Of a DNA stretch of 64,000 nucleotides, positions 9,746-52,303 are shown piece after piece (the stretch's first letter is position 1; each line of letters begins with the position of its first letter). The stretch is from Candidatus Bathyarchaeia archaeon (GTDB taxonomy: Archaea > Thermoproteota > Bathyarchaeia > 40CM-2-53-6), in the NCBI GenBank assembly GCA_035935655.1, contig DASYWW010000037.1, forward strand, positions 124,001 to 188,000, read 5' to 3'. Below the pieces are notes generated by a model, which saw only the letters and a program-made list of their open reading frames with translations, was not told the origin of the DNA and ran no database searches. Both the position numbers and the translations under genes were made by a program.

Positions 9746-10795
9746 ATGGTGATCAAGAGAAAGGTAGCTGTCCTCGGCGCAACCGGCATGATGGGTCAAA
9801 AGTTCGTCCAGCTGCTAGCCCACCATCCATGGTTCGAGGTAAGCGCGGTCGCTGCGTCCGACAAGAGTGTTGGCAAAGAATATGGTGCTTCGATTGGATC
9901 AAGAAAAGAAGCAAACCTCCCAGATGAGCTGGGAGAACTCGTACTTACCGAGCCCAAGCCACAAGCTCTCGACGACCCTGATGTGGCGTTCTCAGCTCTA
10001 CCTGCCGAAGTCGCAGGACCTATAGAGGAAGATTTCGCAAAAGCGGGAATGCCTGTGTTCTCGAATGCTTCATCGCATAGAATGGATCAGTACGTCCCGC
10101 TTCTGAATCCAGAGGTAAACCCTGAACATGCTGAGATGGTGGAAGAGCAGAAGCGGCGGATGAAGACCGACGGTTTCATAGTCGCCAACCCCAATTGCAC
10201 CACCGCGATCCTCACCCTCTCCCTCAAACCCCTACAGGACAAATTCGGTCTCGAAACCGTCGTCGTGTCCTCGATGCAAGCCGTGTCCGGCGCAGGCTAC
10301 CCTGGAGTTGCATCCCTCGACATCATGCAAAATGTCATCCCGTTCATCCGAAACGAAGAGGAAAAGGTAGAACATGAAACTAACAAGATACTCGGGACCG
10401 TTTCGAGACTGGCCGGGATCACTGTCTCCGCGAGCTGCAACAGGGTCCCAACCATCCATGGACACATGGAAGCAGTCTTCTCCAAAACACGATCAGCCGC
10501 GACACCCAACGAAGTCATCAAGGTGATGAGCGAGTTCAAGGGAGCTCCTCAACAACTGAAGCTTCCTTCAGCACCTGAGTATCCGATTATTGTCCGGGAG
10601 GAGGAAGATCGCCCTCAGACAAGGCTCGATGTGGACGAGGGAAACGGAATGACAGTAACGGTTGGACGTGTAAGGAGAGACCCAGCGTTGAACGGTGTCA
10701 AGTACATGGCCCTTGGCCACAACCTGGTCCGCGGCGGAGCTGGATGCTCCATCCTCAACGCCGAACTCCTCCTAGCAAAGAAACTAATCAAGTGA
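9746..10795 (+). CDS. asd: Aspartate-semialdehyde dehydrogenase
   Basis: Reduces aspartyl phosphate with NADPH to L-aspartate semialdehyde. The 349-residue protein shows the nucleotide-binding AVLGATGMMGQKFVQLL, the active-site Cys in ANPNCTTA (near residue 150), SMQAVSGAGYPG, and a substrate-binding SCNRVPTIHGH, as in the archaeal/fungal class of the enzyme. It starts at ATG 9746, one base after lysC. Its product is one of the two substrates of the downstream ADH synthase, which explains its place here. Confidence 0.95.
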   Translation: MVIKRKVAVLGATGMMGQKFVQLLAHHPWFEVSAVAASDKSVGKEYGASIGSRKEANLPDELGELVLTEPKPQALDDPDVAFSALPAEVAGPIEEDFAKAGMPVFSNASSHRMDQYVPLLNPEVNPEHAEMVEEQKRRMKTDGFIVANPNCTTAILTLSLKPLQDKFGLETVVVSSMQAVSGAGYPGVASLDIMQNVIPFIRNEEEKVEHETNKILGTVSRLAGITVSASCNRVPTIHGHMEAVFSKTRSAATPNEVIKVMSEFKGAPQQLKLPSAPEYPIIVREEEDRPQTRLDVDEGNGMTVTVGRVRRDPALNGVKYMALGHNLVRGGAGCSILNAELLLAKKLIK

Positions 10796-10805
10796 TCTTG
10801 GAAAG

Positions 10806-11618
10806 ATGGAAACTGGAAAAACCCGTAGACTCAGGCGAATATTCCGACAAGACGGCAAGACCGTCATCATACCGATGGACCACGGAGTATCAATCGGACC
10901 AATCGAAGGACTCGCTGATATGAACGAGACGATTGACAACGTGGCCATAGGAGGAGCCGACGCCGTTCTCGTCCACGCTGGCATAGCCAAGACAGTTGAC
11001 ACCCAGGGAACGGGCCTCATACTCCACCTCTCGGGCGCCACACGACTAACCCGAGAGCCCAACTGGAAAGTGCAAGTATCAAGCGTCAAACTAGCCGTTC
11101 GTCTCGGCGCGGATGCAGTATCGGTTCACATCAACGTCGGATCCGAACACGAACAAGACATGCTCGACCAGTTCTCGCGAGTACTAGACGAGAGCGATGA
11201 CCTCGGTCTGCCAGTCCTCGCGATGATGTACCCGAGAGGGCCTGGAATCCAGAACGAACACAGTTACGAAGTGGTCAGCCATGCAGCCCGACTCGGTTAC
11301 GAGCTGGGAGCAGATATCGTCAAGACAAACTACACAGGAGATATTGACAGCTTCCGAAGCGTCATCAAGAGCGTCAAAGCACCAGTGGTCGTAGCTGGCG
11401 GGCCCAAAGCAGGGAGCGAATCCGAAGCTCTCCAGCTCGTCTCAGACTCGATCAAAGCAGGAGCTGCCGGAGTATCCATTGGGCGAAACGTGTTCCAGCA
11501 TCGCAAGCCGACCCTGATGACTAAAGCACTCGTCGAGATAGTCCACAGTGGAAGCAGCCCCGCGCAAGCGCTCTCGATCCTAGGTGAAAGAACTGAAAGA
11601 ATTCTGGCTAGAGCCTAG
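10806..11618 (+). CDS. 2-amino-3,7-dideoxy-D-threo-hept-6-ulosonate (ADH) synthase
   Basis: This aldolase-family enzyme (AroA' of methanogens) condenses aspartate semialdehyde with 6-deoxy-5-ketofructose-1-phosphate to start the archaeal alternative shikimate pathway, replacing bacterial DAHP synthase. The 270-residue TIM barrel has IPMDHGVSIGP at the first strand, the tyrosine of MMYPRGPG (about residue 142) as likely proton donor, and the Schiff-base lysine in DIVKTNYTGD (about residue 173). A phosphate-binding GVSIGRNVFQ is near the C-terminus. The last 35 bases overlap the next gene. It may be annotated as class I fructose-bisphosphate aldolase in error. Confidence 0.93.
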   Translation: METGKTRRLRRIFRQDGKTVIIPMDHGVSIGPIEGLADMNETIDNVAIGGADAVLVHAGIAKTVDTQGTGLILHLSGATRLTREPNWKVQVSSVKLAVRLGADAVSVHINVGSEHEQDMLDQFSRVLDESDDLGLPVLAMMYPRGPGIQNEHSYEVVSHAARLGYELGADIVKTNYTGDIDSFRSVIKSVKAPVVVAGGPKAGSESEALQLVSDSIKAGAAGVSIGRNVFQHRKPTLMTKALVEIVHSGSSPAQALSILGERTERILARA

Positions 11619-24358: not shown

Positions 24359-24834
24359 AGAAGACGAAAATCTTCCTTTACGGTCGTAAGAACAATGTGA
24401 GTGTTAGTCCGTTCAACGAATGGCATTGCCAGGAGTGCCTTGGTGAACTTGCTCAGGTCGTCTCTGCTCCTGAACTTCGCAATGACCATAGCATCGGTGA
24501 GCCCGGTAACGTCGTAGACTGCTAGAACTTGCGGCATCTTTGCAACCTCCTTCTCTAGTTCGAGGAGTTTGCCCTTGGCGACGCTTACCTCTGTGATCGC
24601 GGTGAGCTGGAAGCCGATCTTGTCGTGATCGAACAGGGCTGAATATCCTCTTATGATCCCGGCCTTCTCTAGCTTCGCTGTTCTAGATTGAACTGTGCTT
24701 GTGGAAACGCCAAGCTTGTGCGCTAACTCCCTGTAGGATAGGCGAGCATCGATAAGATACCAATGCAGTATCTTCTTGTCGAGATCGTCAAGAGCAATAT
24801 CTTCGACCTTCAACTCGTCCTTTGTGGTTGTCAT
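24355..24834 (-). CDS. Lrp/AsnC family transcriptional regulator
   Basis: A 159-residue regulator with an N-terminal helix-turn-helix (LDDLDKKILHWYLIDARLSYRELAHKLGVSTSTVQSRTAKLE, residues 16-57) and a C-terminal RAM/AsnC effector-binding domain (LTAITEVSVAKGKLLELEKEV, VYDVTGLTDAMVIAKF). Family members bind amino acids and repress or activate amino-acid genes. It is the last gene of the gatD-gatE row (four-base ATGA overlap with gatE) and converges on trpA with overlapping stops, so it is a candidate controller of the adjacent cluster. That role is inferred from position. Confidence 0.9.
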   Translation of the reverse strand: MTTTKDELKVEDIALDDLDKKILHWYLIDARLSYRELAHKLGVSTSTVQSRTAKLEKAGIIRGYSALFDHDKIGFQLTAITEVSVAKGKLLELEKEVAKMPQVLAVYDVTGLTDAMVIAKFRSRDDLSKFTKALLAMPFVERTNTHIVLTTVKEDFRLL

Positions 24835-26729
24835 GCTTTGACGTGTTCCAATCGGGTCCGAAGCAGCTCGGTGACTTGCCCCGGGTCCGCTCGTCCCCTC
24901 ACTTCTCCCATTACCAATTTCATCATTCGTCCGAGGGCCTTGGCACCATTCTCTTCAACGAGAGACCGGTTCGATTCGACGATCTCACTGATAATATTCT
25001 CGAGGTCCGATCTGGTTAGCATTCGAAGCTTCAGCATATTGACGGCTTCTTCCGCGGTTCCATCTGGATGAAGTGCGAGCCATTTTAGAACGTCGAGAAC
25101 TGACTCTTTTGCGGTTACTCCCATCGATACCAGGTCGAACGCTCGCTTGAGCTGGTCTTCCCGAACATTCTCCACAGGCACTTGCTCCCTTTGCAAGCTT
25201 CTCAGAGATTCGGTGAGGATTGTTGCCACAAAGCTTGGCGCGACCCTTTTTGTTCTTGCGACAATCTCCTCGAATGCCGGAAGATAATCAGAATCCACGA
25301 GCTGAGTGGCTAGCTTGGAGCTGAGATCGTATTTTTTCCCCAGTTCCTTGGCGAGCTCCTCGGGCATTCGGGGAAGGTTCTCCCAGATCTGTTCAAGTCG
25401 GTCCTGGCCAACCTGAACGGGCGGGACATCCGTCTCGGGATACATTCTAGCGGCTCCAGGCCTTGGGCGAAGATAGACAGTGGTCCCGTCAGGGTTTGCC
25501 GCCCTCGTTTCTTCGGGAACCCTTTCCACGGCCTCCCGAGCACGTTCTGCTACAGCCTTCAAACCGTCTTTTGCATTATCGAGACGGTCAGTTATGATGA
25601 CAAACCCGTCGAGGTCCCCACACCCAAGTCTTTTCGCAATCTCTTCTACGTGACTTGAATCTATACCATATGAGGGGAGTTCATCTGAGTGGAAAATTCC
25701 TCCGACTCGGCCCCAGAAGACCGCGCGCTTGGCCATCTCAGTCCCCAGTCGAACATTGGGAATTAATTCCCGTTTGAGCAGTCCTTTGAAACCCGGAAGT
25801 TTCAGGGCTAATGCTACGCCTCCTTGATTGAGAGCAGATTGGACGATCTTCGACTGCGAGCTTGAGAGTATATTGGTGACGTCCTCGAATTCCTCTTTGA
25901 GAGCTGAAGCCTTGATGTTTCTCTGTTGGAGTTCATCTCTGATCTCGAGAAGTTCGCGCTGCCTCTGAACCTCGTAGCCCACCGCCTTAGAAACGAGTTC
26001 GAGCTCTTGAACGCCTTTGATCTCGATAATGGCACCGTTCTTGATTGATACGTTGAGGTCCTGCCTAATGCTTCCTAGACCTCGTTTTACCTTCTTTGTT
26101 GCTCGGAGGATTCGGCCTATGGCGAAAGCAACTTCTCCCGCTTGATCTGGATCATGGATTATTGGTCCAGTTGAGACTTCTATCAGCGGAACTCCGAGCC
26201 GATCTAGGCGAAAGATCACCGAGGTCTTTGTGTCGCCTGTTTTTCGTGCCGCGTCTTCTTCGAGCGTTACTTGCTCTATCGGAACTTCTACTCCGCCCAC
26301 GGTTAATGATCCGTTCAGGGCGATGACCGCTGTGCGCTGGAATCCAGTTGTGTTGGACCCATCAATCACTACTTTCCGCATGACGTGAATCTCGTCCAAC
26401 GGCTTCGCATGAAGTAGCATGCTCATAGTAAGGGCGACATCCAATGCTTCCGGGTTCAGCAGATGCGGGGGTTCTTCGTCAAGCTCAACGAGACAAGTGG
26501 TTTCGGGATCAGCCTCGTAAGTAATGGTCTTGCCCTTGTGGAACTCAAAGAGAGCTGCTGGATCAATCTGGCCTAGCTCGCTTTGTGTAGGCCTGAGTTT
26601 CCGTTCGAAGGAGATCGTGGGGGGCTTTGCTGATAGAATTGTTGGGCAACCGCAGAAGAGCTTGTGCTTAGTGTCTAGCTGTCTGTGTATCTCGACGCCG
26701 ACTTTGAGGCCGACCGCGCGATAGTCTAT
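24831..26729 (-). CDS. gatE: Glutamyl-tRNA(Gln) amidotransferase subunit E, apparent ATA start
   Basis: GatE with GatD converts Glu-tRNA(Gln) to Gln-tRNA(Gln), the archaeal route to charged tRNA-Gln. From 26729 the frame encodes 632 residues, the family length. It begins DYRAVGLKVGVEIHRQLDTK, then HKLFCGCPT, matching GatE N-termini (MDYxxxGLKVGLEIHQQL). It continues with EIHVMRKVVIDGSNTTGFQRT, an inserted AspRS-like segment, and the C-terminal YqeY-like tail. The only codon positioned as initiator is ATA (26729-26727), because TAG lies three codons upstream. The first canonical start (TTG 26444) would delete 95 essential residues. It lies in the same frame as gatD. Confidence 0.92.
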   Translation of the reverse strand: MDYRAVGLKVGVEIHRQLDTKHKLFCGCPTILSAKPPTISFERKLRPTQSELGQIDPAALFEFHKGKTITYEADPETTCLVELDEEPPHLLNPEALDVALTMSMLLHAKPLDEIHVMRKVVIDGSNTTGFQRTAVIALNGSLTVGGVEVPIEQVTLEEDAARKTGDTKTSVIFRLDRLGVPLIEVSTGPIIHDPDQAGEVAFAIGRILRATKKVKRGLGSIRQDLNVSIKNGAIIEIKGVQELELVSKAVGYEVQRQRELLEIRDELQQRNIKASALKEEFEDVTNILSSSQSKIVQSALNQGGVALALKLPGFKGLLKRELIPNVRLGTEMAKRAVFWGRVGGIFHSDELPSYGIDSSHVEEIAKRLGCGDLDGFVIITDRLDNAKDGLKAVAERAREAVERVPEETRAANPDGTTVYLRPRPGAARMYPETDVPPVQVGQDRLEQIWENLPRMPEELAKELGKKYDLSSKLATQLVDSDYLPAFEEIVARTKRVAPSFVATILTESLRSLQREQVPVENVREDQLKRAFDLVSMGVTAKESVLDVLKWLALHPDGTAEEAVNMLKLRMLTRSDLENIISEIVESNRSLVEENGAKALGRMMKLVMGEVRGRADPGQVTELLRTRLEHVKA

Positions 26730-26735
26730 GGGCGA

Positions 26736-28070
26736 CTATGAAGCCTCCACTAGTGTCCTTGGGGTCATTTCTCCTGCGATCGGTTGAAGCATCAGTTTTC
26801 GAATCTTGCTGGCTGATTTGGTCTGGGCGGCAACCCACATCAGCTTGACGACAGCCGTTTCGGGGATCATGTCTTCGAGAGGGGTGACTCCGAGATTGAG
26901 TAAGTCTCGTCCAGTGTTGTAGACATTCATATCGACGCGCCCCCATATCGTCTGAGAGGTCATGAAAACTGGAACCTGTTTTTGCAATGCCTTCTTCAAA
27001 GAGTCAAACAGGGATCTCGAAACATGCCCTAGTCCCGTTCCCTCAATCACTACTCCTCGGGCTCCATCGGAAATGGCTAAGTCGATCATGCCAGGGTTGA
27101 ACCCTGGGTAGAACTTGATCAAGTATGCGTTTTGGTCAAAACGAGACTTCGCGACAACCTTTCGAGATTTGTCCCTTTTCGGGACTCCATTCGTCATTTC
27201 GATTTGGCCGGTCTTCAGATCGTAACTTGCCAGAGGACTAGAGTTGATGGACTTGAAGGCATCTCGCCGACTCGTGTGACATTTTCGAACCCTAGTGCCT
27301 TGATGAGCCACAATTATTTGATCAGATAGGTCTCGGTGCACGGCAACACCTACCGCTGCCATGTCGGCTCGACCGGCCAGGGCAATTGCTCCAGTGAGAT
27401 TGGAGGCGGCGTCTGAGCTGGGCCGGTCAGAAGATCGCTGAGCACCTACGAGTAGGACTGGGACTGGCAGGTTTGCGAGCGCGAAACTCAAAGCCGCCGC
27501 AGTATAGTGCAATGTGTCTGTTCCATGACTAATGACCACACCTTCTGCGCCGTCGGCTATTCGCTTGGCGACTTCTTCGGCCATACCCTTCCAATGTGTC
27601 GGGCCTATGTTCTCGCTATACTCGCTGAAAAGTATGTGAGCATCTATCTCTGCAATTGATGAGAGTTCAGGGACCACGCTTGCGAGATCGGCGGCTGTGA
27701 GGGCAGGTTGCACGGCACCAGTGCGATAGTCGACCCTGCTAGCAATGGTCCCGCCAGTGCTAATGATGCCGACTTTGGGTAACCCAGAATGAATAGCTGG
27801 TGGAGGAGACTTGGTGAAGTGAGGTTTCTCCCCCTCTCCAATTACCTCAAGCTTTTCCGTTCTGTCAAGTGAAATGCCTACATTGTATCCGTTTTTCATC
27901 TTCAAGACTATGTGAGTGGGATCAGAGTACTCCGATCGCGGAATTAGGGTCCCTTCGAAAACTTCGCCTGACTTCGAGGTGAGTCGGATGATGCTACCGA
28001 TTCTGGTCCTTGATTTCCGTAACTTTTGAAGCACACGCCCATGGTATCCCTCTAGCTCTCGGACTCTCAT
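26736..28070 (-). CDS. gatD: Glutamyl-tRNA(Gln) amidotransferase subunit D
   Basis: The asparaginase-like subunit that releases ammonia from glutamine or asparagine for GatE. The 444-residue protein has an N-terminal SH3-like barrel (residues 1-75, IRLTSKSGEVFEGTLIPRSE). An L-asparaginase domain follows, with the nucleophile Thr in GIISTGGTIAS, the second Thr/Asp pair in ISHGTDTLHYTA, and IEGTGLGHVS. It starts at ATG 28070. Its TAG is six bases before the presumed gatE start and in the same frame. Confidence 0.95.
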   Translation of the reverse strand: MRVRELEGYHGRVLQKLRKSRTRIGSIIRLTSKSGEVFEGTLIPRSEYSDPTHIVLKMKNGYNVGISLDRTEKLEVIGEGEKPHFTKSPPPAIHSGLPKVGIISTGGTIASRVDYRTGAVQPALTAADLASVVPELSSIAEIDAHILFSEYSENIGPTHWKGMAEEVAKRIADGAEGVVISHGTDTLHYTAAALSFALANLPVPVLLVGAQRSSDRPSSDAASNLTGAIALAGRADMAAVGVAVHRDLSDQIIVAHQGTRVRKCHTSRRDAFKSINSSPLASYDLKTGQIEMTNGVPKRDKSRKVVAKSRFDQNAYLIKFYPGFNPGMIDLAISDGARGVVIEGTGLGHVSRSLFDSLKKALQKQVPVFMTSQTIWGRVDMNVYNTGRDLLNLGVTPLEDMIPETAVVKLMWVAAQTKSASKIRKLMLQPIAGEMTPRTLVEAS

Positions 28071-31360: not shown

Positions 31361-31528
31361 TTAGGTCCTGATGTAGTTCTGTCCTGGTTTTCGGCCGAGG
31401 ACGAATCTCTTTTCAGAATTCCGCCTAACTCTCTCTCTTGGAGAGAGACCTGGTTTGTTCATTGCCTGGATCTTCGGAGTCTGTTGCCTGACTTTTCCTG
31501 CCTTGGTTAGCGAGCCGTGAGTTGGGAT
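31361..31528 (-). CDS. rps30e: Ribosomal protein S30e, ATC start
   Basis: A 55-residue basic protein read from ATC 31528. After the initiator it is PTHGSLTKAGKVRQQTPKIQ, the near-invariant N-terminus of archaeal/eukaryotic S30e, then a basic middle RERVRRNSEKR and the end LGRKPGQNY. The small-subunit protein normally starts MPTHGS, so the ATC replaces ATG exactly. AAGGAGG (31537-31543) sits eight bases upstream, and a TATA box at 31566-31573 predicts a transcript starting just before that ribosome-binding site. The next upstream in-frame codons are GCA and TAG. A hairpin (31430-31448) lies inside the coding region and is probably incidental. Confidence 0.9.
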   Translation of the reverse strand: MPTHGSLTKAGKVRQQTPKIQAMNKPGLSPRERVRRNSEKRFVLGRKPGQNYIRT

Positions 31529-31565
31529 TGCCTATTCCTCCTTAGGGTTAAAAAGGGGTCGTGAG

Positions 31566-31573
31566 ATATTTAA
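31566..31573 (-). promoter_or_regulatory. TATA box of rps30e
   Basis: Minus-strand TTAAATAT, about 25 nt ahead of a predicted transcription start near 31544. The resulting leader of roughly 16 nt contains the AAGGAGG motif that places initiation at the ATC codon. Confidence 0.6.
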
Positions 31574-37174: not shown

Positions 37175-37711
37175 TCATCCGGGCGCAGTCACCTTTGTTT
37201 CATGCTGGGACGCGGCGGCACGAGCTGTCACGCCTCTCGCGATCTCGTGTGACTTGCGAATTCCCTGAATTGACAGCCGGTAGTTTCCCTCGTTAGTCCG
37301 CTCGACGATGCCTGTCTTCGCCATCATCGCGAGGGTGTTGCGTACTGTTTTGACAGATTTTCCGATAGCTTTGCTGATATTCTCAGGACTCATATCGACG
37401 CTCGATCGAGTGCCCACGGCATGGGCAACCCGGGTGGCGAGGAGAACGAGCGAGATCGATTGTTCCGCAGACATTTCTGGTTTCAGGAAGACCGCTTCAC
37501 CATCAGGTGTTAGTTTGACTGTCTCGGAGAGATCGTCCACCATCGACGAGTAATCTGGAGAAAATGTCAGTTTCGATGCGAGTGAATAGTTGGGCAGAAC
37601 CTGTGCTGCAAACCTCATGACCTCCTGGACCACAGTCTCCAAATCGCCTTCGACTGTGTGTTTGATGTCTCCCCATTCGATCTGAACTTTGACCTTCGGA
37701 CGCTCCGTCAT
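37175..37711 (-). CDS. Winged-helix protein, paralogue B
   Basis: A 178-residue protein with an N-terminal alpha/beta region (VKVQIEWGDIKHTVEGDLETVV, then LPNYSLASKLTFS) and a C-terminal winged helix (about residues 108-155, ISKAIGKSVKTVRNTLAMMAKTGIVER). It shares layout and several positions with the gene immediately upstream (ASKL, SLxxLA.., IVER..xGxYRLS/T), so the two arose by tandem duplication. It probably binds DNA. Co-location with nurA-herA suggests control of, or a part in, DNA-end processing, but there is no direct evidence. Six bases separate it from its paralogue. Confidence 0.72.
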   Translation of the reverse strand: MTERPKVKVQIEWGDIKHTVEGDLETVVQEVMRFAAQVLPNYSLASKLTFSPDYSSMVDDLSETVKLTPDGEAVFLKPEMSAEQSISLVLLATRVAHAVGTRSSVDMSPENISKAIGKSVKTVRNTLAMMAKTGIVERTNEGNYRLSIQGIRKSHEIARGVTARAAASQHETKVTAPG

Positions 37712-37717
37712 CGCGTT

Positions 37718-51054: not shown

Positions 51055-51648
51055 TCAGCTATCCGGCTTAACCGTTTCTAACGATGCTGGCGCGTCCTCT
51101 CCTAGCTGGAGTACTTTCTTCAGTTCCCTTTTCATTAGCGACGGATCATGGTTGAGGTTGAAGTAGTCCGCGAACGTCGTAGTCGTCCTTAGCATTCTAG
51201 TTCTCCCTATTCTCTCGTCATTAATCAGATCCATGTCTTTCAACTGTTTCACATGAACGTAGGCCAGTTTTCCACGAACGCGTACGACATAGGACTGTGT
51301 GATGGGTTGCTTCAGAGCTATGAAAGATAGTGTTCGAAGAGGTCCCGGTGTTAGAAGAGGCCGGTTCGCTAGTTTTCGAACGTGCTTTGCAAATTCTGCC
51401 TTTAACTGCATGACAAACCGCCCGTCTGGAAGTTCGACAACTTGAATTGGGCTGCCAGCAATCTTGTAGCGTTTTGAAACCGCTGTCGCAATTCCGCGAA
51501 TCTTATCCTCTGATCTAGCGCCGATGACAGACCCGATCATCTTCAAGTCTAAAGGCCTTCCAGATACATACAGTGCGGCCTCGCAGAGCTGCTGTTGTAG
51601 ATCAGCAGATTTCAGCTGGGCTGTGCTAGTCGAAACTTGTGCTTCCAT
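51055..51648 (-). CDS. scpB: Condensin subunit ScpB
   Basis: A 197-residue winged-helix kleisin-associated protein of the SMC complex. Typical segments are LCEAALYVSGRPLDLKMIGSVIG, PIQVVELPDGRFVMQLKAEFAKHVRKLA, LSFIALKQPITQSYVVRVRG and DLINDERIGRTRMLRTTTTFADYFNL. It is the last gene of the smc-scpA-scpB set and overlaps scpA by 23 bases. It works with ScpA and SMC in chromosome organisation and segregation. Confidence 0.92.
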   Translation of the reverse strand: MEAQVSTSTAQLKSADLQQQLCEAALYVSGRPLDLKMIGSVIGARSEDKIRGIATAVSKRYKIAGSPIQVVELPDGRFVMQLKAEFAKHVRKLANRPLLTPGPLRTLSFIALKQPITQSYVVRVRGKLAYVHVKQLKDMDLINDERIGRTRMLRTTTTFADYFNLNHDPSLMKRELKKVLQLGEDAPASLETVKPDS

Positions 51649-52303
51649 CGTTCTTCAACTCGATTTCGATATCTCCGAACTCGAAGGGCTGGGCGAGACC
51701 AACTCTTCCCTCCACGGCGAGGAATAGCAACATGATGAACATTCTCACTGCCTCCAGAGGATTACCCTTTCCGAGAAGGGTCAAGAAGGACACTTTCTTT
51801 CGCGCAGGACCAGCCTTTGTGAGTAATGTTTGGAGAAACGCTTTGATGTTTTCTTCTATCTTTACAAGGAAATCGTCAACTTGTTCGAACACCTCCGGCG
51901 GTCTAAGAACCATCTGTGCACTCGCCGGTAGCATTCTTTCCGCCGTTAGCACCTCCAATAATCCTTTGATAACTTCCTCAAAAGATGTGGTTGTCGATTC
52001 ATATCGCAACGGAAAGGCAAGGGGTGGTGGGACGAAATCTGTGGGCCTTTCGAGCGGTGGTTTTGGTGGTTCTTCCATCTTCAGGATGAGCTCCGACTTC
52101 ATGCGGAGGAGAATTGCAGAGGATAGAAGGGCAGTGCCGGAAACGGAGAAGTCGATGAAGCCGCGACCCCTCATCTCAAGCATAAGCTCATCAAGCAGAT
52201 TTGCAAGATTTACATCCCACGGTTTCACCCGGTGAAGATGAATCAGATCAAAAAGGACCGCATAAGGTGCCTTCAGCCAGTACGCCTTTTCGTGCGCTGT
52301 CAA
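51626..52303 (-). CDS. scpA: Condensin kleisin subunit ScpA
   Basis: A 225-residue kleisin that bridges the SMC heads. The N-terminus has APYAVLFDLIHLHRVKPWDVNLANLLDELM, then LLSSAILLRMKSELIL (SMC-neck contact). A Pro-rich linker (EEPPKPPLERPTDFVPPPLAFP) follows, and the C-terminal winged helix is VSFLTLLGKGNPLEAVRMFIMLLFLAVEGRVGLAQ, which meets the SMC head. The start codon lies in a four-base overlap with the smc stop. Confidence 0.93.
   Translation of the reverse strand: MTAHEKAYWLKAPYAVLFDLIHLHRVKPWDVNLANLLDELMLEMRGRGFIDFSVSGTALLSSAILLRMKSELILKMEEPPKPPLERPTDFVPPPLAFPLRYESTTTSFEEVIKGLLEVLTAERMLPASAQMVLRPPEVFEQVDDFLVKIEENIKAFLQTLLTKAGPARKKVSFLTLLGKGNPLEAVRMFIMLLFLAVEGRVGLAQPFEFGDIEIELKNDGSTSFD

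Follow-up and report, generated by a model that had tools for sequence, protein, structure and literature searches.

How does an archaeon make the ribosomal protein eS30 from a gene that lacks an ATG, GTG or TTG start codon? The question is raised by a 64,000-nucleotide stretch of DNA from a Candidatus Bathyarchaeia archaeon (hereafter the window), in which the eS30 gene (rps30e, or S30e) occupies positions 31361–31528 of the minus strand and opens with ATC. Judged by its sequence, the locus is a functional single-copy eS30 gene without a canonical start, and the comparisons below indicate that the non-canonical start is a trait of the eS30 gene and not of this one genome. The first-pass annotation of the window was right that the non-AUG start of S30e is real; what needs amending is that the start is no peculiarity of one genome, as the canonical start has been lost in many archaeal lineages.

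The eS30 gene of the window and its first codon

From position 31528, the minus strand reads ATC CCA ACT CAC GGC, and the frame is open from ATC through a complete translation of 55 residues, IPTHGSLTKAGKVRQQTPKIQAMNKPGLSPRERVRRNSEKRFVLGRKPGQNYIRT*. Identification of the product as S30e, made at first pass, is borne out by Pfam PF04758 (Ribosomal_S30), which scores 39.3 bits (cut-off, 27). The top and sole NCBIfam family matched is NF006817 ("S30e"), which covers residues 2–46 at 64.2 bits, below its equivalog cut-off of 75; the bathyarchaeal eS30 sequence is divergent from this model. The window gene also possesses the conserved N-terminus (M)PTHGSLTKAGKVR and the single-copy status of an eS30 gene: a search of the whole source genome (a draft in 65 contigs, ~96% complete) found one S30e, at the window locus. 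An ATG-bearing second copy is ruled out, no second intact rps30e being present elsewhere in this genome. As had been anticipated, standard gene calling overlooks the gene, which is missing from a mechanical list of open reading frames (ORFs) made with ATG, GTG and TTG starts.

The features of the gene and its 5′ region are:

31361–31528, minus strand: rps30e (eS30) coding sequence, 55 codons plus stop, ATC-initiated (translation, Pfam PF04758, single copy, constraint on codons 2–20)
31526–31528, minus strand: ATC start codon; the homologous codon is ATC, ATA, ATT, ACG or TTA in all other genus copies
31529–31531, minus strand: GCA codon just 5′ of ATC
31532–31534, minus strand: in-frame TAG stop, two codons upstream of ATC, barring any upstream start
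31537–31543, minus strand: Shine–Dalgarno (SD) sequence AAGGAGG, 8-nt spacing to ATC; computed duplex with AUCACCUCCU, −10.0 kcal/mol
31566–31573, minus strand: TATA-like box TTAAATAT, centred ~42 nt before codon 1; predicted leader ~15 nt

With ATC, TAG, AAGGAGG and TTAAATAT at these positions, the earlier description of a well-defined non-AUG initiation site holds. Because TAG closes the frame two codons upstream, GCA and ATC are the sole candidates for the start.

The genus was sampled through 16 S30e copies from 15 genomes of soil Bathyarchaeota, the named contigs of the nearest relatives being soil metagenome-assembled genomes of Candidatus Bathyarchaeota. Codon 1 is ACG in eight copies, ATA in four, ATC in two, and ATT and TTA in one each; ATG, which in close relatives would have spoken against an ATC start, is found in none, and neither is GTG or TTG. 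All of the observed codons but TTA lie one base from ATG, and TTA lies one base from TTG. Upstream NTG codons are likewise absent from every genus copy, with in-frame stops 1–7 codons upstream in many, and an upstream start is ruled out by these stops and by the lack of an intervening NTG. When codon 1 is mapped onto a tree built from concatenated ribosomal-protein loci, at least nine base changes are required, yet none of the present-day genus copies has NTG. A near-cognate start is kept among relatives, as is expected of genes of the infC type. The two sister genera carrying an S30e copy both have ATG. One genome (G013) holds two S30e copies, with TTA and ACG starts (L121/L148 on G013:C53 and L122 on G013:C111), and is possibly a mixed bin.

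Selection on the N-terminal codons was assessed among the intron-free, full-length genus copies. Residues 2–20 of eS30 are identical in these copies while nearly all of the corresponding codons vary synonymously; across codons 2–22 there are 534 synonymous versus 41 nonsynonymous codon differences, and the nonsynonymous ones begin only at codon 21. The window copy has its first internal ATG at codon 23, which is ATG, CTA, CTG, TTG or CAG among genus copies. The constraint on codons 2–20, together with the variability of codon 23, places the beginning of translation at or just before codon 2, and initiation at codon 1 itself appears highly probable. An internal start at codon 23 is ruled out, both by the presence of CAG or CTA in some relatives and by the concentration of the strongest constraint on codons 2–20.

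Two explanations would dispose of the non-canonical start altogether. The first is that the sequence or its assembly is wrong, or that the gene is dead, to which the draft state of the window genome lends some colour. However, differing near-cognate codons stand at the same place in independent genomes, finished isolate genomes likewise show S30e without a canonical start, and the gene is a sole copy under strong purifying selection; sequencing error is ruled out by the relatives and the finished genomes, and the explanation as a whole can be considered negligible. The second is that RNA processing supplies an AUG, by cis- or trans-splicing of an AUG-bearing 5′ exon onto codon 2. A predicted bulge-helix-bulge (BHB) intron in codon 9 of S30e in three genus members suggests that this mRNA can be spliced. 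The usual distance from an archaeal TATA box to the transcription start is, however, well established, and the TATA-like element precedes codon 1 by a median of 41 nt (~37–50 nt in most copies), so that the leader would be ~15 nt long (roughly 10–25 nt), accommodating an SD but leaving no space for an upstream AUG exon. Codon 1 and its flanks are, moreover, not conserved as a splice site, and an in-frame stop lies close upstream. Given the TATA distance, a stop-proximal or spliced AUG is unlikely, and splicing of a 5′ exon is very improbable.

S30e starts in other archaea, and the starts of other genes

Five other ribosomal-protein genes of the genus retain NTG starts: eL39 begins with ATG in 15/15, eL37 with ATG or TTG in 13/13, eS28 with GTG in 16/16, and ATG opens uL3 in 9/9 and uL23 in 10/10. 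Codon 1 lacks NTG in 16/16 S30e copies but in 0/15 eL39 genes of these genomes, a contrast well outside chance (Fisher's test, p = 3e-9, a nominal value, as the genomes are related). Genus-wide loss of start discrimination is insufficient as the whole explanation, since these five genes keep NTG. Among 52 other conserved window-syntenic genes (~313 gene-genome starts) there are three clear near-cognate starts (ACG, ATA, and ACG) and at most three CTG, with near-cognate starts in at most ~2% of gene-genome pairs. A non-AUG start is tolerated now and then in this genus, but in S30e it is fixed; gatE (below) is the one other gene with similar behaviour.

Recurrence beyond the genus was surveyed in 200 distinct S30e 5′ regions from Thermoproteota/TACK archaea (Thaumarchaeota, Aigarchaeota, Crenarchaeota, and Korarchaeota). 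No in-frame NTG is present in 39 of the 200, which carry ATA, ACG, ATC, ATT, GTA or TTA instead; CTG is never seen as an S30e start in this set. Three loci (L031, L265, and L223) were left out of the non-NTG group on account of an in-frame NTG close upstream. The lineages that contain S30e without NTG are genera g1, g7, g55, g43, and g45, families f44 and f71, and Nitrososphaeria. A scan of 257 Bathyarchaeia genomes located ATA, ATC and ATT starts in g7 (3/3), g55, g43, and g45, and named contigs of Nitrososphaeria have ACG, ATA, and GTA. A phylum-wide scan with follow-up brought out families f44 and f71. Within f44, S30e lacks NTG in 4/4 members of genus g137 (ATT, ACG, ATA, and ACG) and 5/7 of genus g153 (ATA, ATA, ACG, GTA, and one without any NTG); in f71 the start is ACG.

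Two finished genomes belong to this group. In the first, which matches Caldivirga maquilingensis (PMC2253699), S30e starts at ATT. S30e also lacks NTG in the second, which matches Vulcanisaeta distributa IC-017T, a finished genome with a stated error of less than 1 in 100,000 (PMC3035369). This Vulcanisaeta gene (L267 in G331) reads TAA GAG GGG ATA TGC CTA TCC CAC GGC; leucine occupies the usual place of Pro2, and ATA, TGC and CTA are all possible starts. The eL39 control, read in the same or closely related genomes, has NTG in 27/27.

By these comparisons, the canonical start of S30e is lost repeatedly, in several unrelated lineages that include cultured type strains. No earlier report of a non-AUG S30e was found in the open literature searched. 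Non-AUG starts and control of the infC type are already known; what appears to be new is that one particular ribosomal-protein gene has given up AUG time and again across archaea. Gene callers restricted to ATG, GTG and TTG overlook an essential gene across whole archaeal genera, and where ORF-based surveys count from the first start codon and report S30e "losses" (PMC3353972), some of these may be missed genes.

Probable selected control, possible drift, and the proposed sensing of eS30

Why should the start be weak? The pattern suggests a conserved way of controlling the amount of eS30, and the favoured reading, considered probable, is that the SD drives initiation at a codon which is deliberately weak and is maintained by selection, most likely for translational self-control. 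A short mRNA would start just ahead of AAGGAGG, and the SD duplex would set AUC in the P site, where initiator Met-tRNA would read it via near-cognate pairing. With methionine then removed ahead of Pro2, the mature protein would not differ from the product of an AUG start. The median SD duplex is −8.95 kcal/mol for non-NTG S30e versus −5.3 kcal/mol for NTG copies (Mann–Whitney p = 3e-9, uncorrected for phylogeny).

Several observations weigh against this reading. Most TACK S30e genes keep ATG, and such control is therefore not universal. Phylogeny confounds the comparison of SD strengths, as many of the NTG copies come from leaderless lineages. Within the genus, uL2 has one CTG start among ten, and uS19 has, besides one TTG, one GCG among eleven; these sporadic starts and the gene gatE (below) mean that part of the pattern may reflect a general tolerance in the genus.

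Tolerance is also the substance of the main rival, in which SD-led mRNAs would initiate at near-cognate codons, methionine would be removed, and codon 1 would simply drift without any regulation, harmlessly, either because little enough eS30 is required or because the site is strong enough. The sporadic ACG, ATA, CTG and GCG starts outside S30e within the genus, the non-AUG start of gatE in every genus genome read, and the stronger SD of the non-NTG set all accord with drift. However, no genus copy has returned to NTG, though it is one base away and codon 1 has changed so often; recurrence is seen only in S30e, with eL39 of matched genomes keeping its NTG throughout; and a ribosomal protein is normally required at one copy per subunit. 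Tolerated drift is thus a serious candidate, albeit on balance a doubtful one.

If selection for self-control is accepted, the question becomes what is sensed. In Sulfolobus solfataricus 30S complexes, eS30 Pro2, exposed after removal of methionine, touches h44 in the neighbourhood of the A site; the eukaryotic eS30 tail makes contact with eIF1A, and eS30 is one of three small-subunit proteins common only to TACK/Asgard archaea and eukaryotes (PMC11698992). With its N-terminal tail at the decoding centre, eS30-bearing subunits would be expected to discriminate against non-AUG starts. Were they to do so better than eS30-short 30S subunits, eS30 would exert negative feedback on its own mRNA through its own start codon, which by analogy is quite possible but put forward tentatively. 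More speculative again is the general form of the proposal, that the weak start of the TACK eS30 mRNA reports 30S subunits without eS30, in an occupancy feedback loop with several independent origins. The recurrent, gene-specific loss of AUG in eS30 yields the direct prediction that eS30 controls start-codon stringency, and the cultured species with the trait (Caldivirga and Vulcanisaeta) are open to expression work.

The closest precedent is Escherichia coli infC, encoding initiation factor IF3, which starts at AUU (AUC in Streptomyces) and whose product limits its own synthesis (PMC5472188). Both genes have a near-cognate non-AUG start, and the product of each works on the small subunit, close to where decoding takes place. 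They differ in that eS30 is an archaeal ribosomal protein whereas the infC product is an initiation factor, in that autoregulation is known for infC but proposed for eS30, and in that the eS30 codon varies freely among relatives (AUA, AUC, AUU, ACG, GUA or UUA). A second precedent is Streptomyces sigR, with a GTC start that is repressed by IF3 (PMC5472188). As with S30e, this is a single gene whose conserved rare start codon tunes protein amount and which gene callers overlooked; sigR, however, encodes no ribosomal component, and its repressing factor is identified as IF3. These bacterial cases are the support for a further rival, in line with the initiation-factor coupling suggested at first pass, whereby aIF1 or another fidelity factor would repress AUC, and S30e output would track the level of that factor and not of eS30. 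Such a factor sensor offers no reason for S30e in particular to be the target across unrelated lineages, and it is unlikely. It is no less likely that eS30 itself is sensed than that an initiation factor is, because the recurrence is confined to S30e and the N-terminus of archaeal eS30 is located at the decoding centre (PMC11698992).

Ordinary rps30e genes with ATG, as in most of the Sulfolobales and Bathyarchaeia copies read, encode the same protein, with N-terminal PTHGSLTKAGKVR or PSHGSLTKAGKVR, and likewise have a TATA element and a short leader. They differ in their canonical start and are often leaderless or have a weaker SD.

A predicted S30e intron and non-canonical starts elsewhere

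The codon 9 insert of the relatives' S30e is 31 nt long and occurs in L118 (G009), L124 (G015), and L126 (G017), and also in L036:2943–3138. It folds as a BHB with a 4-bp GACC:GGTC central helix and 3-nt bulges, with predicted cuts at AA^T and TG^A, which is the structure expected of such introns. Excision of the 31 nt restores an intact eS30 frame, whereas the unspliced message is frameshifted; the insert is thus a predicted archaeal pre-mRNA intron in a ribosomal-protein gene, the splicing of which would be needed for intact eS30. Archaeal pre-mRNA introns have been described in cbf5 of Crenarchaeota, with one in an mRNA 5′ untranslated region (PMC2738675, PMC7714728). The S30e intron differs from the cbf5 BHB introns (PMC2738675) in host gene and lineage and in being predicted from sequence; the window copy is intron-free. 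Intron-bearing S30e loci, which start with ACG or ATA, do not form one clade on the species tree, and G009 is sister to the intron-free G005. The split between G009 and G015/G017 suggests either that the locus was exchanged laterally or that the intron was lost.

The sporadic non-canonical starts in other genes include uS19 GCG in L141 (G008) and uL2 CTG in L135 (G006). Further such starts (ATA, ACG, and ACG) are found in the G017 orthologues of window 37178–37717 and 51058–51654 and in the G003 orthologue of 10788–11615.

The gene gatE (window 24831–26735, minus strand) directly follows the gatD stop (26736–26738) and has no ATG, GTG or TTG start in any genus genome read. Its start context in the genus is GGAGG, 8 nt, and then TCG right after the gatD stop in the same frame, with GCG in G003 and CTG in G002. 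A sister genus has ACG or TTA at this codon, and sister-genus G020 likewise has gatE without NTG. Coupled non-AUG initiation and read-through from gatD into gatE are the alternatives that this arrangement would allow.
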